Of a stretch of DNA of 64,000 bases, positions 612-8,955 are shown in pieces; position 1 is the first letter of the stretch; each line of letters opens with the position of its first letter. Under the pieces are notes generated by a model. It was not told the origin of the DNA and ran no database searches. It saw only the letters and a list, made by a program, of their open reading frames with translations. Location: assembly GCA_021800275.1 (NCBI GenBank), contig JAJYZB010000006.1:62001-126000 (forward strand), in the 5' to 3' direction. This DNA is from a bacterium. Lineage in GTDB: Bacteria; Vulcanimicrobiota; JABDET01. The position numbers and the translations under genes are program-made.

Positions 612-661
612 AGAAGCCCTTCTTGGGAAGGGCTTCTCTAATTCTGTCACAGTGTTTTTTT
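609..661 (+). terminator. Hairpin terminator of the thiolase gene
   Basis: A perfect 14-bp stem with a 4-base loop (609-640) starts on the thiolase stop codon. A run of eight T follows at 653-660, about 12 bases beyond the stem. The long stem supports termination; the offset T-run makes efficiency uncertain. The convergent gene on the other strand ends at 661. Confidence 0.6.
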
Positions 662-2562
662 TACCGTTTAATCGCTTTTTCAAGAGCTCCTAGACCTGCT
701 GCCATAGCGGCTGAGGTTTTAATGCTGTTCCACCACATGATTGGTTTTCCTTCTCTCATGGTATGACATCTCTGGCAGTAAGGGATATTAGGATTGTCTT
801 TATAAGCCCACATTTGCCCTTTGACTCTTCCCATCAGAAAATCTTTTAAAGTGGCTTGATTGGGCCACCAGATATGATTGGGGTTGTGGTCCTTAACAGA
901 GTAAATGGAGTTGCAGGGGGAAGGTATCCGATCACAAATATGAGGGGGATTATTTAAGTTTTTAATCAGAATATCACCTGTCATCGCATGATAAGCGCTC
1001 CAGGACAAACCAGGAACTCTGCCAGGAGGAGGAACAACAGCAGAAGGGGGAACTGCTTTAAGAATATACACCACATTGGCGATCAGATTGAATTCGCTGG
1101 CAAGAACTCGGGAATCTTTATGAATTTTCTGCAGATCACTTGAAGCGCTTCCTAAAAGAGAAGAGAGTTGGCTTTTACTGGAAGGCGCAGGATGGAGCTG
1201 CTGCACAATTTGCTGAAAATTTTGATCTGTGGATTTGATATTTTTCATCTTTTGATCCCAGACAGAAAATTTCTGAGTGAAAAGGGAAGTCATATAAAGT
1301 TCTCGGAGTTGACTTTTAAGTCTAAACATGGTTGAATTGAGAGTATTGAGTCTCTGAGGCAGCAGCCCACCTAATTTATAAATTTTATAGGTTAATAGTT
1401 TTAACATATTGGGACCATAATGAGAAAGATTATTCGCTGTTTGTTGGGTTGAGCCGGATAGAGCTGCTGTAAAGGAGAGAAGATTTTCATGGAGAGAGGC
1501 AGCAGTTGAAGCAGTTTGAAAAGTAGAGCGAAGTTCATCTTTAATGGCAGCGATTCTTGAAGGGGGAAGGAAAGCTAACTGGATCGGCTTTTTAGCCACC
1601 GGTTTTTTCTTGATGATGGGTTTGTGTTTAATAGCCACTTTGACAGGCTTATGAGTAATGGGTTTTGGTTTAATAACCACCGGTTTTTTCTTCACTGAAA
1701 CTTTGATAGGTTTTGGGGAAACCTTTACAGGTTTATGGACCGGTTTGAGTTTTACAGCCACTTTCTGTTCTGCAATCCATTTTTTAGCAAAAGTTTCCGT
1801 TTTTCTGTTTCTGTCAAACCAGTAGAAGCCGACCCCTTTTCTGGCAGGATGACATCTCAAACAGTAAGGGACCCGAATGGTATTTTTATAAGGGAACTGC
1901 TGTCCTTTCACTTTTCCTAAAAGAAGATCTAAAAGAGAGGCTCGATCAGGCCAAACAGTATGGGCGGGGTTAGTGTCTTTTCGAGAGTAAGCAGGCCGCG
2001 CAGGAGGTACAAATGCCAGAGGAACTGGATGATGCACTCCGTTTTTCACAATATCTAACACATCATTGATGACCATAAAATTGATGACCATGGCATTGGT
2101 TATTTTATGCAGCTGCCAGGCAGCTGAAGAGGTTAAAGCATGATTCGCTTTTTTGAATTCTTTTTTGAAAGCAGCAGTATGTTTTTTCCATAAATGAAGT
2201 CGTCCTTTAAAAATGGGATAAAACCCTAAGGCTGCAACTTCTTTTTCAAATTCAGTCATGGCTGCATGAAGAGAACGGCTGAGAGCAGGCAGATGGCGAA
2301 AAATCTGCTGCGCTCGTTTAGATTTAGGGGTTCTGTTAAGTATGTGCGCTAACATCAAGGTTTTTCTAAACAACTGCAGCTGATTTCGAGTTATTTTTCG
2401 AGCTGATTTTAAAAGGGCTCTTTCTCCTTTTCTTTTCTGGAGTCTTGCTCTGGAATAAGAAGAAGCATGAGAAACTAGAATGAGAACTGTCAGAAGAGGG
2501 ATCACCAGGAGAGCAAACAGGAATATTATTTTTTTTCTAGATTTAACTTCAAATAACTTCAT
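661..2562 (-). CDS. Membrane-anchored diheme c-type cytochrome with Lys/Pro-rich tether
   Basis: 633 residues, no family recognised. An N-terminal transmembrane segment (about residues 11-31) is followed by a helical region and two homologous heme modules. Module 1 ends in YCLRCH (C234, C237, H238) and module 2 in YCQRCH (C596, C599, H600). Each CxxCH is preceded by a matching stretch: D-x-N-P-x-H, WP, L-x-D-x-L-x-G-x-V-K-G-Q. Between the modules, residues 271-326 are a strongly basic KP/KPV repeat tract that resembles the periplasm-spanning linker of TonB. Topology suggests inner-membrane anchoring with the hemes in the periplasm. It follows a DUF1848 gene by 4 bases and lies downstream of mtrA-mtrB-like genes, so a role in moving electrons to that conduit is inferred, not shown. 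Axial ligands beyond the CxxCH His are not evident. Confidence 0.7.
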   Translation of the reverse strand: MKLFEVKSRKKIIFLFALLVIPLLTVLILVSHASSYSRARLQKRKGERALLKSARKITRNQLQLFRKTLMLAHILNRTPKSKRAQQIFRHLPALSRSLHAAMTEFEKEVAALGFYPIFKGRLHLWKKHTAAFKKEFKKANHALTSSAAWQLHKITNAMVINFMVINDVLDIVKNGVHHPVPLAFVPPARPAYSRKDTNPAHTVWPDRASLLDLLLGKVKGQQFPYKNTIRVPYCLRCHPARKGVGFYWFDRNRKTETFAKKWIAEQKVAVKLKPVHKPVKVSPKPIKVSVKKKPVVIKPKPITHKPVKVAIKHKPIIKKKPVAKKPIQLAFLPPSRIAAIKDELRSTFQTASTAASLHENLLSFTAALSGSTQQTANNLSHYGPNMLKLLTYKIYKLGGLLPQRLNTLNSTMFRLKSQLRELYMTSLFTQKFSVWDQKMKNIKSTDQNFQQIVQQLHPAPSSKSQLSSLLGSASSDLQKIHKDSRVLASEFNLIANVVYILKAVPPSAVVPPPGRVPGLSWSAYHAMTGDILIKNLNNPPHICDRIPSPCNSIYSVKDHNPNHIWWPNQATLKDFLMGRVKGQMWAYKDNPNIPYCQRCHTMREGKPIMWWNSIKTSAAMAAGLGALEKAIKR

Positions 2563-2566
2563 TTTT

Positions 2567-3574
2567 TCACATCCTTTCTTTTAAATAACCTGCTGCGTTC
2601 TGATAAGCTGGATCATGTTTTGGGGTCCAGTCTTTTAAAAATCGAGCCGGGTCGGGAAGAGAGAGAGAAGATTTAAGGTGTTTTCTTTTTCTTTCCAGAG
2701 CAAGCTCTCTGTTTTCTGTCGCAAAACAGTAAACACAGCCGTGAAGACAGGTGTCATAACTTCCAATATCAATCATTTCACTGCAGGCGCAGGAAACTTC
2801 TCGCCCATGGTTCTGCTCTGCATACGTAGAGACAATGGGAGCCGCCGCAGCAGGCAGGGGAAGATGTTTTTCTCCACCTTCTAAACAAGAAGCTGATTCA
2901 ATGATAAAAGAGGAAGAATCAGATGCAGATGGGGAAGCGTACTCTATTCTTGAAGAGATCAACCTGATATTGGCTTGATTCGCGATCCATTTCAATGAGA
3001 GCAGAAAAGTCTTCAATTCTTCTTCATGAAGTTTTAAAGGAAGAGATGGAAGTTTGGAAGCGCTGGTTTCAGATTCATAAACTCCAAAATCAAAAAAACA
3101 TTTGTAAGTATATCCGCTTAAAGCCTGCGCAATTTTAGCAAATTGTTCTAAAATAAATGATGGCGGGGTTTTCTCCGTAAAGACAATGGGATCAAATCTC
3201 CAGTGAACCTGATGAATGGAAGTGCGAAGAGCCAGTTCTTTAAACGTTTTTAAACTGGTTTCCAGAGATTGAACACAGGGCTCAAATTCTGTGGGCAGCC
3301 CTGTAATGGTATAATGGAAATCCGCATGGAAATTATTTTTCCCCAGAAATTCAACGCATTTGAAAAAAGGCTGGTAATTTCTAGACCAGAAAAGGAATCT
3401 ATCCACATCGTCTTTGCGAAGAGATACAAGAGTCGAAGTTCCTGTATAAGGATCCCAAACTTTAACTTTCCCTTCTTTCAGTCTTTCATAAAACCAGGGA
3501 GAATAAAAACCAGGGATATCGGTCCTCATACTGGCTGAAACAATCTTGTGTTTTTTCAAACAACTTTCTTCCAT
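2567..3574 (-). CDS. DUF1848 family protein with CX3CX2C motif
   Basis: 335 residues, recognised as DUF1848 from the N-terminal VSASMRTDIPGFYSPWF, the WDPYTG stretch and HWRFDPI. Near the C terminus, C276-LHG-C280-VY-C283 has the CX3CX2C spacing of radical-SAM [4Fe-4S] sites, as in spore photoproduct lyase-like enzymes; C262 and C264 lie just before it. The substrate is unknown. Residues 211-247 look like a low-complexity Ser/Ala insertion. It begins after GAAGAGGAG, 31 bases beyond the mtrB terminator hairpin, and its stop is 4 bases from the diheme-cytochrome start. The two are therefore probably co-expressed, possibly by readthrough from mtrAB, and a role in cofactor or protein modification for the cytochromes is only a guess. 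Confidence 0.8.
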   Translation of the reverse strand: MEESCLKKHKIVSASMRTDIPGFYSPWFYERLKEGKVKVWDPYTGTSTLVSLRKDDVDRFLFWSRNYQPFFKCVEFLGKNNFHADFHYTITGLPTEFEPCVQSLETSLKTFKELALRTSIHQVHWRFDPIVFTEKTPPSFILEQFAKIAQALSGYTYKCFFDFGVYESETSASKLPSLPLKLHEEELKTFLLSLKWIANQANIRLISSRIEYASPSASDSSSFIIESASCLEGGEKHLPLPAAAAPIVSTYAEQNHGREVSCACSEMIDIGSYDTCLHGCVYCFATENRELALERKRKHLKSSLSLPDPARFLKDWTPKHDPAYQNAAGYLKERM

Positions 3575-3605
3575 TTTATATTCTCCTCTTCAAAGTTCTT
3601 CTCTT

Positions 3606-3643
3606 CAAAAAATTATCCCCCACAAAGGGGGAATAATTTTTTG
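3606..3643 (-). terminator. Terminator after the mtrB-like gene
   Basis: On the minus strand a GC-core hairpin (CCCCC/GGGGG flanked by A/T pairs, loop of 5, one bulged base) ends in a T6 tract 22 bases after the mtrB-like stop. The next gene on the strand starts only 31 bases further, so incomplete termination would let it be transcribed at a reduced level. Confidence 0.65.
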
Positions 3644-3665
3644 AATTTAATCCATAAAACCGATC

Positions 3666-6500
3666 TTAAAATGAAAGGGAATAATAAACTGACTCAGACC
3701 AGACATGACCATTCATCAGGTTGGGAGAATAAACATAAGAATTGAATCCACCTGGAGAAGTAATATACCCTGATGGACAGGCAGGAAGAGGCATTGGGGC
3801 AGAGGCTCCACATTCTGCCGCAATATCAGGAACATTGTTTGAAAACTCATTATACTGAACCGTCAATCCTAAAGAAGCATTTTTCTGGAGCATTCTTTTG
3901 ACATTTAGAGCATAATCATTCTCATTTCCATCAATTCTAGTCATGACTTGAAGATTTGGGAGATCATTGTAAAAGTTAGCAGGAATATTGATATAGCCAA
4001 CCCCTGGGACAAAACTAAGGGCGGGACTGGAAAGATATGGATTCTGAAAAGTCTGGGGCCTTGAATGAGTGTAATTAACCCCTAGATTCCAGTTTTTCCC
4101 TGGAGTCCAGTTAATTCCAGCGTAAATTTCCTGATCTTGAATATTGACTTGATCAATTAAATTATCAGGAACCCCTCCTAGAACAGAACTAGAAGTAACA
4201 GCCCACTGTGCCCACGGCTCAAAAAGCCCAACCCAGAAAGCTGATCCAACTGCTGGAAGACAAGAAGTCGGACTTGGGGCTCCTATACAGGTAGGAAAAG
4301 GAACAGCATAATTCACTGCTTCTGTATCATAAACAGGAGAAACTGACTGCTCCTTATTGATCGTATTGGTGTACCCTGCAAAAAGGGAGAAAGCGCTGGA
4401 AGGGATATAGTTCGCATTAAAACTTAAAGTGCTGGTATTGTCAGAATAAGGATATACCCAACTGGAGTTCGTTTTATCCGCTTCATTCGTATAAGAAAGG
4501 CTCATAAAAACTTGAGAATTCGGACTGTAATTCAAATTCCCATAATATTTCCAGTTATCCATAGGATCTGTTCTGAGCCAGGCATTGTTCGCAAATCTCC
4601 GAAGCACACTGAGGCGATAAGTTAACCCACTGAGAATTGGGCCCCCGATCTTTGCCTGCCAGCGGTATTGATCAAAGGAAAGGGACTCTAGTCCAACAGG
4701 CATTCCAACTGGCCAGCCGGTTGGAGTCATCCCTGTTAAAGCATTGTAGGCTGCAAAAGGATTAAATCCTCCAGCAGGTCCTGCTTCCCCAACAGGATAA
4801 TATCCAGGGACAGTTGGAGGGACATTCACAAACCCATAAACAGGATAAGTAATGGTATTGGTGCCGCAGCCGATCAAAGCTGCTAAACCAGCAGGGAACC
4901 CTGCAGAATTACAGGGAGAAATTAAAATTGGAATAACCTCTGTTGGACCAGCAGCTCCATTAGGAGTATAGGTTACCACATAGCCATTCGAAACTGCTGT
5001 TCCTAATTGATCTCCCTGGAGAGCTGTATTCACAAGAGGATTGAAAGCTGTAAAAATTCGAAGATCATAATAATCTAAGAGCTGGGAATCAGTTTCATGT
5101 TCCCAGCCACCTGATAAGCTGAGGTACTGATTCCCAAAAATTAAATCATACCCAGCAATTAAATTTTCGTCTTTTCTGTGCATGGCATCTAAAATACTAG
5201 AATCAGGAGTTTCATCCCAGTAATCATAATCTAAATAACCATGCCCTGCCTGGCGAAAATTAAAATTAAAAGTTCCTCTCACCTCTTCATTGGTGTATTG
5301 AGGAGAAAGATTCGTAGGGGGCTGCTCAGCAGAAAGCATTGGAGGAACATAAGGAAAAGAAATCGCATCCTGAGTGCCGTAGCTGAAAATCCCTGCGGAT
5401 CGTTTATTCCACTGTTTCCAGTATCCTGAAATTGAATAATTGCTGCTGAATGGAATTCTTAATCCTGCTTGATTTTCACTCCAAAAGGTATCTGCAGCAG
5501 TAGTGGGTAAATCTTCTGATTCAGCACTAAATCCATTGGCAGGAGAAGGGGTTATTCCTGCGGGTCCAGAAGCTGCCAGAAGGTTTGCTTCAGTATAACC
5601 CACCTGTTTATTATCCCAACTGGTAGAAGTGGTGGCAGCATATCCCTGAACAAGGCTGTCTGTATAATTCACTCCAACAGTAGTTCGGGAAAGATTGTTG
5701 TCTCTTCCTACCATTCCATTCCAGTCCCCTGCTGCTGATCCTAAATAATATCCCTGGAGTCCAGTCTGGCTTCTCAAAACATTGGAAAGATAAAACCCAA
5801 GTCCGGAATTTTCAGTATATCGAAGAGAATTTACAATATAATCATCCAGTCTTGGATAATAAGGAAAATTTTGGATATACCCGGGGAGGTACCAGGCTCC
5901 AAGTGGAGCCACAAAAGACCCAGAAGGATACCCAAATAAAGGGGAAAAATCAGCCAACTCTGGATTTGGATCAAATCCATAAAAAACATCTCGATTTAAA
6001 ATTTTCGCGTATCTCAAATTATAAGTCAGATTAGGATCCTGATACCTGACCCTTAACGCTTTATGGAAATCATCTTCATTCATGGCATATCCATTAAAAA
6101 CCCCTCCTGATTTAAGGCGGGCGCCGAACCGCAAACTGTTAATATAAAATCCGTTTTCTAAAGGAGCATAGGGATCTTCTACTGCTGGATTTCCAGAGAT
6201 CGAATTCACATTAAAAGATTCATTGATGCTCACCCCAGGAATTCCTGTTACAAGAGCCGCTAAAAGGGCATTAAAACTGGAGGTTCCGATCCCCCAATTC
6301 GGATCTTTCGCTAATCCTGGAATCCCAAATCCATAGTTTGGATTAATAGGCTGAATAGGGGGAAGTACCTGCGGCTGATAAACCGGACCCCCAGCGGCAG
6401 CAAAACTGGCGAGCGGCAGCGCCAGAATTGAGCTTAGAAAAGCGCACAGAGTCAAGATTCGAGCTAACTTTTGAGTCATTTTTTTGATCATCCTTTTCAT
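3666..6500 (-). CDS. mtrB: MtrB/PioB-like outer-membrane beta-barrel
   Basis: 944 residues with a Sec signal peptide (MKRMIKKMTQ, hydrophobic core to about residue 30, ASFAAA cleavage region). The rest alternates aromatic and polar residues typical of a large beta-barrel, is rich in Tyr/Asn/Gly, and ends in YYSLSF with a terminal Phe, as expected for outer-membrane assembly. It lies 13 bases after a decaheme cytochrome gene, the arrangement of mtrAB/pioAB electron conduits, in which the barrel sheathes the decaheme protein across the outer membrane. ATG at 6500 is chosen because AAAGGGGGGG sits just upstream; an in-frame start at 6545 would overlap the decaheme gene and spoil the signal peptide. 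No N-terminal CxxC, as found in Shewanella MtrB, is seen. A generic porin is the alternative. Confidence 0.75.
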   Translation of the reverse strand: MKRMIKKMTQKLARILTLCAFLSSILALPLASFAAAGGPVYQPQVLPPIQPINPNYGFGIPGLAKDPNWGIGTSSFNALLAALVTGIPGVSINESFNVNSISGNPAVEDPYAPLENGFYINSLRFGARLKSGGVFNGYAMNEDDFHKALRVRYQDPNLTYNLRYAKILNRDVFYGFDPNPELADFSPLFGYPSGSFVAPLGAWYLPGYIQNFPYYPRLDDYIVNSLRYTENSGLGFYLSNVLRSQTGLQGYYLGSAAGDWNGMVGRDNNLSRTTVGVNYTDSLVQGYAATTSTSWDNKQVGYTEANLLAASGPAGITPSPANGFSAESEDLPTTAADTFWSENQAGLRIPFSSNYSISGYWKQWNKRSAGIFSYGTQDAISFPYVPPMLSAEQPPTNLSPQYTNEEVRGTFNFNFRQAGHGYLDYDYWDETPDSSILDAMHRKDENLIAGYDLIFGNQYLSLSGGWEHETDSQLLDYYDLRIFTAFNPLVNTALQGDQLGTAVSNGYVVTYTPNGAAGPTEVIPILISPCNSAGFPAGLAALIGCGTNTITYPVYGFVNVPPTVPGYYPVGEAGPAGGFNPFAAYNALTGMTPTGWPVGMPVGLESLSFDQYRWQAKIGGPILSGLTYRLSVLRRFANNAWLRTDPMDNWKYYGNLNYSPNSQVFMSLSYTNEADKTNSSWVYPYSDNTSTLSFNANYIPSSAFSLFAGYTNTINKEQSVSPVYDTEAVNYAVPFPTCIGAPSPTSCLPAVGSAFWVGLFEPWAQWAVTSSSVLGGVPDNLIDQVNIQDQEIYAGINWTPGKNWNLGVNYTHSRPQTFQNPYLSSPALSFVPGVGYINIPANFYNDLPNLQVMTRIDGNENDYALNVKRMLQKNASLGLTVQYNEFSNNVPDIAAECGASAPMPLPACPSGYITSPGGFNSYVYSPNLMNGHVWSESVYYSLSF

Positions 6501-6513
6501 GTTTTCCCCCCTT

Positions 6514-7461
6514 TTATGGTGTAAAGAAGTTTCTGCTGGTGTCACTGCCGTGAATTGCAGGATGGCAGGCAGAGCAGTCTTGAGCTGTTACAGACCACTG
6601 CAGCGAAGAACCTGTATGGCAGCGGATGCAGAGGGCTGGCTGCGGGAGTCTCCATAAAAATTCTTGGGGAGACCCGTGTGGACTGTGGCAGGCTAAACAC
6701 CCTGCAGTTGTGGAATGAGAGAAAACAAAAGGTCCTGCTTCAGCAGGATGGCAGGCTCCGCAGGATTCAACAGAACGCCTTGCTCCAAAAACCTGGGGGG
6801 CATTTTTCAACATGGTCAGTCTTGAACTAAAATGAGGTTTATGGCAGTCTGTGCAGGTCATTAACCCTTCATTGACTGGGTGGTGGGAAAATTCGTTAAA
6901 CTCTGCTTTTATTCTTAAGTGGCACTGATAGCAGACATCCCTTTCAACAGCGTATTTTAAAAGATACTTATTTTGAGTTGGGACCGCATGAAAACTGTGG
7001 CAGTTCAGACAGTCTAAATGGGCTCCTGCATGGAGAACAGACTGCCCTCTAAAATGGCAGGTCTCACAGAGAGCATTGATTTTAGCGGGGGGCCATGCTG
7101 CAATATTATTGATTTCAGTTGGAGCATTGTCAGCCACATGAAGACTGGCATTTCCATGGCAGTATTCACAGTGGGATGTTCCTTGAATCATGGAATGGAT
7201 GTTCATTTTCCATTCCTTGGGTGTTAACCCAAGTTTGTCGGCATCAACTGGCTGCGGGTGGCAGTTCCAGCAAGCTGAATTTCCAACCGGTTTTGCCCCA
7301 GGGATTAAAATCAGAGATTTTGCAATCTTTCCATTGTGATTAGGGGCAAACCCTGGATTCGTAGGGGTAATATACCCCGCATTTCCTTTCTTCCATAAAA
7401 ATAAGAGGCAGCACAATACTGCCGCCGCAAAAATAAGAAGCTTTTTACTTCTCCTCTCCAT
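6514..7461 (-). CDS. mtrA: Periplasmic decaheme c-type cytochrome, MtrA/PioA/DmsE type
   Basis: 315 residues with a signal peptide (hydrophobic core about residues 8-22) and exactly ten CxxCH motifs: CWNCH, CEYCH, CETCH, CLNCH, CYQCH, CTDCH, CGACH, CLACH, CIRCH and CSACH. Length and heme count match the MtrA/DmsE/PioA family, whose members carry electrons across the outer membrane inside an MtrB-type barrel, either outward to metals or electrodes or inward from Fe(II). The barrel gene follows directly. The start has a strong GGAGGTGG. Upstream lies a promoter with an FNR-like site. No outer-surface cytochrome of the MtrC/OmcA type lies in the window, so the conduit may be the two-part Pio type or may use a distant partner; direction of electron flow cannot be read from sequence. 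Confidence 0.9.
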   Translation of the reverse strand: MERRSKKLLIFAAAVLCCLLFLWKKGNAGYITPTNPGFAPNHNGKIAKSLILIPGAKPVGNSACWNCHPQPVDADKLGLTPKEWKMNIHSMIQGTSHCEYCHGNASLHVADNAPTEINNIAAWPPAKINALCETCHFRGQSVLHAGAHLDCLNCHSFHAVPTQNKYLLKYAVERDVCYQCHLRIKAEFNEFSHHPVNEGLMTCTDCHKPHFSSRLTMLKNAPQVFGARRSVESCGACHPAEAGPFVFSHSTTAGCLACHSPHGSPQEFLWRLPQPALCIRCHTGSSLQWSVTAQDCSACHPAIHGSDTSRNFFTP

Positions 7462-7761: not shown

Positions 7762-8955
7762 TTAGGAGTGTTTTGGTTGAACAGGAGCATTGGGAAAAAA
7801 GGCGGCTTTTATGGAAAATATTTTAGGGAGATGACTGAATAGTTCTATCCAATGGTTCCCTTTATCCATGCTGGCAAAAAGGGATCCCCCTGTGGTGCCA
7901 AAAAATAGGTGGGACGGGTTTGACCCATTGATCCACAGTCCTTCCCTCAATATTTTGACGTAAGCTGGATAAGGTAGTCCGTGAGAAAGCTCTTTCCAGG
8001 TTTTTCCTCCGTTTTTCGTGCGATAGACCGCCAGTTTTCCTTTTGGAGCCGTTCGCATTTCCGGGCTTTCATGGGGAATGACGTAAACTTCATCTGGATT
8101 TTCAAGATGAGAGGTAAGAGTAAATCCATATCGGCTTGGAAGCCCTTGATCAATAGGCATCCATTTTGAGTCCTCTGAATCCCTTCTCCATACTCCTAGA
8201 TGATTTTGTTGATATAATCTTCCTGTTTTTCCTCCCGCAAAAATTAATTTGTGGACACAGGATGTTCTGGGATCGGATGGGATTCCATCATTTGTCGTTT
8301 TCCAGGTTTTCCCACGGTTGAATGTTTCAAAAACTCCTGCTGCTGAGATTCCAACAATAAGATGGTTTGGATTTCTTGGATCCACAAGAATTGAATGCAG
8401 ACAAAGCCCGCCTCTGCAGGGTTTCCAGGAGCTTCTGGTCTCATGTTGAGTTAATCCTTTTATTTCATGCCACGTTTCTCCGCTGTCATCACTTCTGAAT
8501 AAAGCAGCTGGGGAGACTCCAGCATAAATAGAACCAGGATATTCTGGTGAATCGGGCTGCATTTGCCAAATTTCTTTTACGCATAATTTTATTTTTTTCG
8601 AAAAACGAGGAGAGTCTTTTGATTCCTGCCAGGTTTTTCCCAGATCACGGCTTCTAAAAATGGTCGGTCCCCAATGGCTGCTGCTGCCTCCTGCATAAAG
8701 GGTTTGGGGAATAGTTCTAGAGTCAAATGCAGAACAGAAAATATTGAATCCGGTTAGAAACGGCCCCTTTAAATCCCAATCTGGGAATTTTTTGGGAAAA
8801 GCCGCTGCAGAATCTGAGTCATGATAAAGTTTTTTGCCAGGAAGAGATTCTGCCACAAAAAGGCCTGACTCGGTTCCAATCAGTAAAATGCTGCTGGAAC
8901 TCAAAGGATTTTCTTTCTGCTGCTTATGTTGTTGTGGTCTATTCGTGAAAAACAA
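7762..8955 (-). CDS. BNR/sortilin-like beta-propeller protein
   Basis: 397 residues with at least five Asp-box/BNR repeats spread along the chain: SRDLGKTW, SDDSGETW, FNRGKTW, TKNGGKTW and SMDKGNHW. Such repeats form beta-propellers in sialidases, Ycf48-type assembly factors and many proteins of unknown role. No signal peptide or catalytic sialidase residues are evident, so no enzyme activity is claimed. The open frame begins at a TTG (8955) without a convincing Shine-Dalgarno; a downstream TTG or GTG start is possible and the first ~20 residues are uncertain. It ends 100 bases upstream of the mtrA promoter. Confidence 0.75.
   Translation of the reverse strand: MFFTNRPQQHKQQKENPLSSSSILLIGTESGLFVAESLPGKKLYHDSDSAAAFPKKFPDWDLKGPFLTGFNIFCSAFDSRTIPQTLYAGGSSSHWGPTIFRSRDLGKTWQESKDSPRFSKKIKLCVKEIWQMQPDSPEYPGSIYAGVSPAALFRSDDSGETWHEIKGLTQHETRSSWKPCRGGLCLHSILVDPRNPNHLIVGISAAGVFETFNRGKTWKTTNDGIPSDPRTSCVHKLIFAGGKTGRLYQQNHLGVWRRDSEDSKWMPIDQGLPSRYGFTLTSHLENPDEVYVIPHESPEMRTAPKGKLAVYRTKNGGKTWKELSHGLPYPAYVKILREGLWINGSNPSHLFFGTTGGSLFASMDKGNHWIELFSHLPKIFSIKAAFFPNAPVQPKHS

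Follow-up and report, generated by a model that had tools for sequence, protein, structure and literature searches.

A putative porin-cytochrome conduit with a DUF1848 protein and an anchored diheme protein as candidate accessory partners

For only a few model bacteria is it established how electrons travel through the periplasm that separates inner-membrane enzymes from outer-membrane conduits. The 64,000-nucleotide stretch analysed here (the window, G000:C30:62001-126000; host genome G000, 2.46 Mb, 98% complete) raises this question through four consecutive minus-strand open reading frames, running from 7461 to 661, which encode a decaheme cytochrome, a barrel-like protein, a DUF1848 protein and a diheme protein: do they specify an electron conduit, and do the last two genes belong to it? 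In our best reading, the unit is a genus-restricted porin-cytochrome conduit of a known kind, its novelty lying in the accessory pair and in a barrel that could not be assigned to MtrB. That the locus encodes an outer-membrane conduit is very likely; that both accessory proteins are dedicated to it, with the diheme protein as an inner-membrane-tethered shuttle, has about an even chance.

An initial annotation of the window had described the four genes as lying on one strand with gaps of 13, about 92 and 4 bases, and measurement agrees (13, 91 and 4 bases). The same genes, in the same order and on one strand, are present in G001, the only other genome of the genus available, where gaps of 12 and 12 bases are followed by an overlap of 4. 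Identity between the two species is 89% for the decaheme protein, 84% for the barrel, 80% for DUF1848 and 71% for the diheme protein, with dN/dS values of 0.07, 0.10, 0.14 and 0.14, respectively, and all four genes are under purifying selection. Given this recurrence of genes and order, together with the low dN/dS, the arrangement is not due to chance. The flanks differ: the unit converges in G000 on the thiolase gene that ends a bzd cluster, and in G001 on genes for a three-subunit, 4-hydroxybenzoyl-CoA reductase-like enzyme, whose alpha subunit scores 784.8 bits, less than the cut-off. Since the four-gene order is kept while the neighbours change, the four genes hold together as a unit. A conserved link of this unit to aromatic-degradation genes was rejected, because bzdO in G001 lies on another contig (G001:C32, 91% identical to the G000 copy) and the closest G000 counterpart of the G001 alpha subunit lies on C28, away from the mtr unit.

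The first gene was correctly recognised as MtrA-type. In the PDB its product matches 6r2q_A over residues 58-284 (E 3.8e-25); the molecule label of this entry in the match table reads 'Cystathionine beta-synthase', and we take 6R2Q to be the MtrCAB entry and its chain A to be MtrA. The best NCBIfam family is that of GSU2203 (NF041028; 163.3 bits, 8e-48, under the cut-off of 325), and the DmsE family TIGR03508 is matched over the whole model length with 157.9 bits, under the curated cut-off of 192.2; the decaheme copy on contig C18 of the same genome scores 247.5 against the latter model. Judged by its ten CXXCH and its full-length likeness to MtrA, the protein is an MtrA homologue.

The assignment of the second gene product is less straightforward. 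Four decaheme-barrel pairs are found in G000 (in the window and on C32, C18 and C33), and at all of them the barrel gene directly adjoins the decaheme gene. The window barrel had been called MtrB-like, a label that turns out to rest on position, size and a C-terminal Phe, with no supporting sequence match: neither PF11854 nor TIGR03509 was matched at E<1 in Pfam and NCBIfam searches. The barrels on C18 and C33 match PF11854 (MtrB/PioB) at about 2e-52. Profile searches with barrels of the window type retrieved nothing from the PDB, and hhalign, used to compare their profiles with those of the true MtrB/PioB barrels in G000, gave a probability of 1.6%, or of 59% across 63 columns when the profile was widened. 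Both window-type barrels also match the GSU2204 model weakly and at one and the same end (NF041027; E 0.012 and 0.007, about 70 residues, far below cut-off). The window barrel has no CXXCH and is 35-37% identical to paralogues on C32 and G001:C28, with which it shares a common barrel type that is absent outside this genus among 149 genomes of the phylum. These analyses were run on 3666-6506, two residues beyond the ATG start at 6500, which leaves the results unaffected; translation may instead begin at an upstream GTG (6545), giving a longer protein. Amphipathic strands were also counted with a home-made tool, which was dropped because it did not usefully separate real barrels, even true MtrB/PioB, from shuffles. 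The protein may be an MtrB that has diverged or a porin recruited separately.

The fourth gene encodes, as had been proposed, an anchored diheme cytochrome, with two CXXCH and one hydrophobic segment. Its sequence contains an internal repeat of helix bundle plus heme tail (tail-to-tail E 3e-20), and AlphaFold predicts confident helix bundles at residues ~40-175 and 335-500 and, between the two repeats, a disordered Lys/Pro-rich linker (pLDDT about 30). The tails, of about 65 residues and one heme each, follow the motif NPxHxxW...AT..DxLxGxVKGQxxPYK...PYCxRCHxxRxG, in which the conserved NPxH histidine is a candidate second (distal) heme ligand. Between the two species, tail 2 is 95% identical, tail 1 68% and the helix bundles 60-73%; the near-invariance of tail 2 is as expected if this tail docks on a conserved partner. 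No plasmid record with the diheme protein was found, and a literature search on proline-rich-linker cytochromes returned nothing usable.

It had further been suggested that this protein replaces CymA. What stands of this idea is that PF03264 (NapC/CymA) was not found in the G000 genome. The diheme protein itself has no PF03264 match in Pfam and carries two CXXCH, compared with four hemes for NapC/NrfH, and a CymA/NapC function was therefore rejected on heme count and profile. Quinol oxidation by the diheme protein itself is unlikely because it has one anchor, two hemes on separate monoheme tails and no NapC domain; a tethered periplasmic carrier fits better.

The distribution of the heme tail was assessed at two depths. 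Two short tail peptides, scanned across 84,980 species genomes, were found in G001 only, a narrow scan that would miss diverged tails. A 69-position tail profile, run over the 149 phylum genomes, detected tails in three of them (G000, G001 and G004). No full-length relative of the diheme protein was found outside the two genus genomes, and in both (2/2) the full-length protein adjoins mtrAB. Single-tail relatives, on C17 and C10 and in G004 (a 143-aa frame), are located away from mtr genes, so that the predicted co-occurrence of diheme homologues with mtrAB holds for the full-length form only. As judged from these matches, the tail is a small, previously undescribed heme domain that has no general tie to mtr, and its tethered double-tail version is mtr-tied. 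The C17 relative (G000:C17:6892-7962) is a 356-aa monoheme protein related to the second half of the diheme protein, encoded beside a gene that by eye is trpE-like in both species (dN/dS 0.09). On C10 (G000:C10:131012-135179), a 535-aa monoheme protein with the same heme tail is encoded directly upstream of ResB and CcsA-type cytochrome c assembly genes, and is also found in G001; c-heme maturation genes of these two types are thus present in G000.

The identification of the third gene product as a DUF1848 protein with a CX3CX2C motif was confirmed over the full domain (PF08902, E 3.3e-63, 214 bits against a cut-off of 30.5). The mtr-linked protein keeps all invariant family residues, namely the CX3CX2C (residues 276-283) and three more Cys, and its N-terminus has no obvious export signal; likeness to the radical SAM family PF04055 is limited to 20 residues (E 0.12). 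DUF1848 is carried by 12 of the 78 genomes searched. Its supposed co-occurrence with mtrAB is seen in both genus genomes and fails in other members of the phylum: multiheme genes are absent from the fetched DUF1848 flanks (about 1.5 kb), save those of the mtr-linked copy in this genus, and a second copy in G000 also sits away from multiheme genes. The PADLOC RTasDUF1848 model (PDLC03815) matches the protein as well (E 5e-33). This reverse-transcriptase-associated reading, an accessory of PADLOC DRT systems, was rejected, as no reverse transcriptase is encoded by the genes directly flanking the DUF1848 gene; the existence of such a model indicates that DUF1848 proteins are recruited by unrelated systems. 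A literature search on DUF1848 found nothing.

Taken together, these data suggest the following arrangement. The decaheme protein would sit inside the barrel and conduct electrons through the outer membrane. The diheme protein would be anchored in the inner membrane, its Lys/Pro linker letting the second heme domain swing out and dock on the decaheme protein, and a separate inner-membrane enzyme would serve the diheme protein as electron donor or acceptor. Fully extended, the 75-residue linker would measure about 23 nm and could span the periplasm. The role of tethered carrier is, in our judgement, evenly poised. DUF1848 would be an Fe-S enzyme of the cytoplasm that carries a radical-SAM-like motif and, within this scheme, most likely serves to mature or modify a partner; taken by itself, the assignment as a maturation enzyme is doubtful. 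A bolder version, in which a periplasm-spanning TonB-like electron arm keeps one heme domain at the inner membrane and reaches the decaheme conduit with the other, borne on the 75-residue Lys/Pro linker, the barrel is unrelated to MtrB and a radical-SAM-like DUF1848 enzyme is dedicated to the system, appears rather unlikely.

Several observations weigh against a conduit with two dedicated accessory proteins. The unit is known from two genomes only, so that the claim of new dedicated partners, which gains from their staying with the decaheme gene in both species despite the flank change, is based on n=2. The sequence tests described above do not identify the barrel as MtrB/PioB, which leaves the label 'MtrB-like' unproven, and its AlphaFold model, built from six sequences, reaches a pLDDT of 25 and was left out of the fold search. 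In the diheme model the heme tails are of low confidence, and a SHA-S motif after the hydrophobic stretch is a possible signal-peptidase site, at which cleavage would free the protein from the membrane. The heme tail is also present in proteins unrelated to mtr. The C32 decaheme-barrel pair has neither a DUF1848 nor a diheme gene, and the accessory pair is therefore not essential to this barrel class. Finally, the terminator noted earlier between the barrel and DUF1848 genes is real: the hairpin in the 91-base gap has flanking T runs and a folding energy of -22.8 kcal/mol (z -3.4), and no shuffle was equally stable. This strong terminator argues against full co-transcription of the accessory genes with mtrAB in the studied species.

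The same terminator is an argument for regarding DUF1848 and the diheme protein as mere neighbours of mtrAB that are transcribed on their own and serve an unrelated purpose, and the DUF1848 genes found away from multiheme genes elsewhere in the phylum and in the second G000 copy point the same way. In the sister species, however, the junction between barrel and DUF1848 is a 12-base gap from which the terminator is absent, and the unit is kept although its flanks have been exchanged; we regard mere neighbourhood as unlikely. If the two proteins instead worked as a pair in assembling the decaheme cytochrome or delivering heme to it, outside the electron path, the apparently cytoplasmic location and radical-SAM-like Cys motif of DUF1848 would be accounted for, as would the tail relative encoded just upstream of the ResB/CcsA maturation genes on C10. 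Hemes attached through CXXCH are permanent, unlike those of heme chaperones, and the three other decaheme-barrel pairs of G000 do without accessory genes, which makes such a pair quite improbable.

A low probability also attaches to the diheme protein being a periplasmic redox or ligand sensor, or a regulator of the conduit, with heme as the sensing group. Helix bundles of this sort occur in chemoreceptor sensor domains, and a fold search with the diheme model returned, besides generic and designed helix bundles, weak Foldseek matches including the Tar aspartate receptor and a periplasmic histidine-kinase sensor; none reached E<0.001. The protein also has a weak match to Tll0287/DUF3365 (PF11845, E 0.2, far below cut-off), and DUF3365 heme-Cache domains can be NO sensors (PMC12889525). 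Membership of that family was nevertheless rejected on this E value and because the Cache fold of DUF3365 includes beta strands and the model, its low-confidence tails apart, consists of helical bundles with no beta sheet. Moreover, the diheme protein was found to lack a further transmembrane segment, a HAMP domain and an output domain in the cytoplasm.

The wider electron-transfer inventory bears on the direction in which the proposed conduit would work. Two of the other loci, G000:C18:41617-50934 and G000:C33:680-9833, hold true MtrA-MtrB/PioB pairs, each beside QrcABCD-like genes; the C18 set, the only one scanned, matches the QrcABC menaquinone reductase families below cut-off. In such an arrangement, a quinone module is linked to a conduit and CymA is absent. 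In both, the pair is followed by genes for a monoheme and a pentaheme cytochrome and for molybdopterin-type, Fe-S and NrfD-like proteins. At the studied locus, the neighbouring bzd cluster and the lack of MtrC are compatible with outward disposal of electrons or with their uptake, and the Qrc-like complexes beside other conduits and the one clear heme-copper oxidase of G000 do not fix the direction.

Other multiheme genes were observed in passing. The gene that ends an efflux-type operon (G000:C16:60432-62000) encodes an octaheme protein, at least 523 aa long, that matches cytochrome c7 only weakly. In G004, a decaheme gene lies beside genes for two large ten-CXXCH proteins, of which the one scanned is MtrC/MtrF-like (G004:C349; L123:3409-10772), a 22-CXXCH protein is encoded upstream of an mtrA gene (G004:C328; L121:2840-4465), and a further decaheme gene is followed by one for an 869-aa barrel-like protein with one CXXCH that fails the MtrB_PioB Pfam model (G004:C256:2625-6193).

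The features of the locus are collected in the table below. Just upstream of the decaheme gene, on the same strand (window 7762-8955), lies a gene for a 397-aa protein with BNR/sortilin-like repeats, which is not at that position in G001. On the other side, the cluster at G000:C30:51354-62611, whose terminal thiolase gene ends at window position 611, is of the bzd-type benzoyl-CoA reductase kind (BzdN, BzdO and BzdQ above NCBIfam cut-offs) and also carries dienoyl-CoA hydratase-, Oah- and Had-like genes, pointing to anaerobic aromatic degradation. The inverted repeat between the convergent genes was not flagged by the terminator scan and is a probable transcript end.

Coordinates of the four-gene unit and its elements (window positions; residue numbers refer to the diheme protein)
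Feature	Positions	Strand	Description
MtrA-type decaheme c-type cytochrome	6514-7461	-	315 aa, signal-like N-terminus, ten CXXCH
Large putative outer-membrane beta-barrel partner	3666-6500	-	~944 aa, C-terminal Phe
Terminator-like hairpin, flanking T run	3604-3645	-	between barrel and DUF1848 genes
DUF1848 protein	2567-3574	-	335 aa, PF08902
Anchored diheme protein	661-2562	-	633 aa; two helix bundle + heme tail repeats, Lys/Pro-rich linker between
N-terminal hydrophobic anchor	2473-2529	-	residues 12-30; 19-residue mean hydropathy 3.28, only such segment
Heme tail 1	1804-2034	-	residues 177-253; NPAH residues 198-201, CLRCH at 1849-1863
Lys/Pro-rich linker	1579-1803	-	residues 254-328; 24 K, 11 P of 75, net +22
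Heme tail 2 and C-terminus	664-1047	-	residues 506-633; NPNH residues 560-563, CQRCH at 763-777
Inverted repeat, 12 bases, 4-base loop	611-638	.	between convergent thiolase and diheme genes; read from sequence

Among known systems, the locus resembles MtrAB, MtoAB and PioAB (TIGR03508 with TIGR03509/PF11854) in that an MtrA-homologous periplasmic decaheme protein is followed by a large putative outer-membrane protein and, as in Mto and Pio, there is no MtrC. It differs from them in a decaheme protein below the DmsE cut-off, a barrel with no clear MtrB/PioB similarity and accessory genes that are not MtoD, PioC, CymA or MtoC. With the GSU2203/GSU2204 pair of Geobacter (NF041028, NF041027) it shares the best NCBIfam decaheme family and the weak barrel end match, both well short of the respective cut-offs. 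A barrel outside MtrB/PioB would suggest that the porin half is replaceable or has diverged past recognition, and surveys that require MtrB would miss such systems.

As for the diheme protein, cytochrome c-y likewise combines an inner-membrane anchor and a flexible linker with a mobile c-heme domain; its sequence is unrelated, and the protein studied here has two heme domains and would have an outer-membrane conduit as its partner. TonB-type proteins have an N-terminal anchor and a Pro/Lys-rich linker that spans the periplasm, and the Lys/Pro-rich linker described here, if extended, would be long enough to reach towards the outer membrane; the likeness is in composition only, as no TonB domain is present. 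The DUF3365/Tll0287 heme-Cache proteins (PF11845; PMC12889525) are similar in having a periplasmic single-CXXCH domain, often stand-alone, and differ in fold, the diheme model being a helix bundle. Accessory cytochromes are already known from beside mtrCAB, among them PdsA, a periplasmic diheme protein, and group-specific cytochromes (PMC8805035). Like our protein, PdsA-type cytochromes have few hemes, are encoded beside mtrA/mtrB and are thought to carry electrons across the periplasm (PMC8805035); unlike them, the protein studied here is anchored, 633 aa long and built of a duplicated helix bundle and heme tail with a long K/P linker. If the proposed role is correct, a covalently tethered two-heme arm would represent a different solution to periplasm crossing from both the soluble shuttles (FccA, CctA, MtoD) and multiheme wires such as PCC3.

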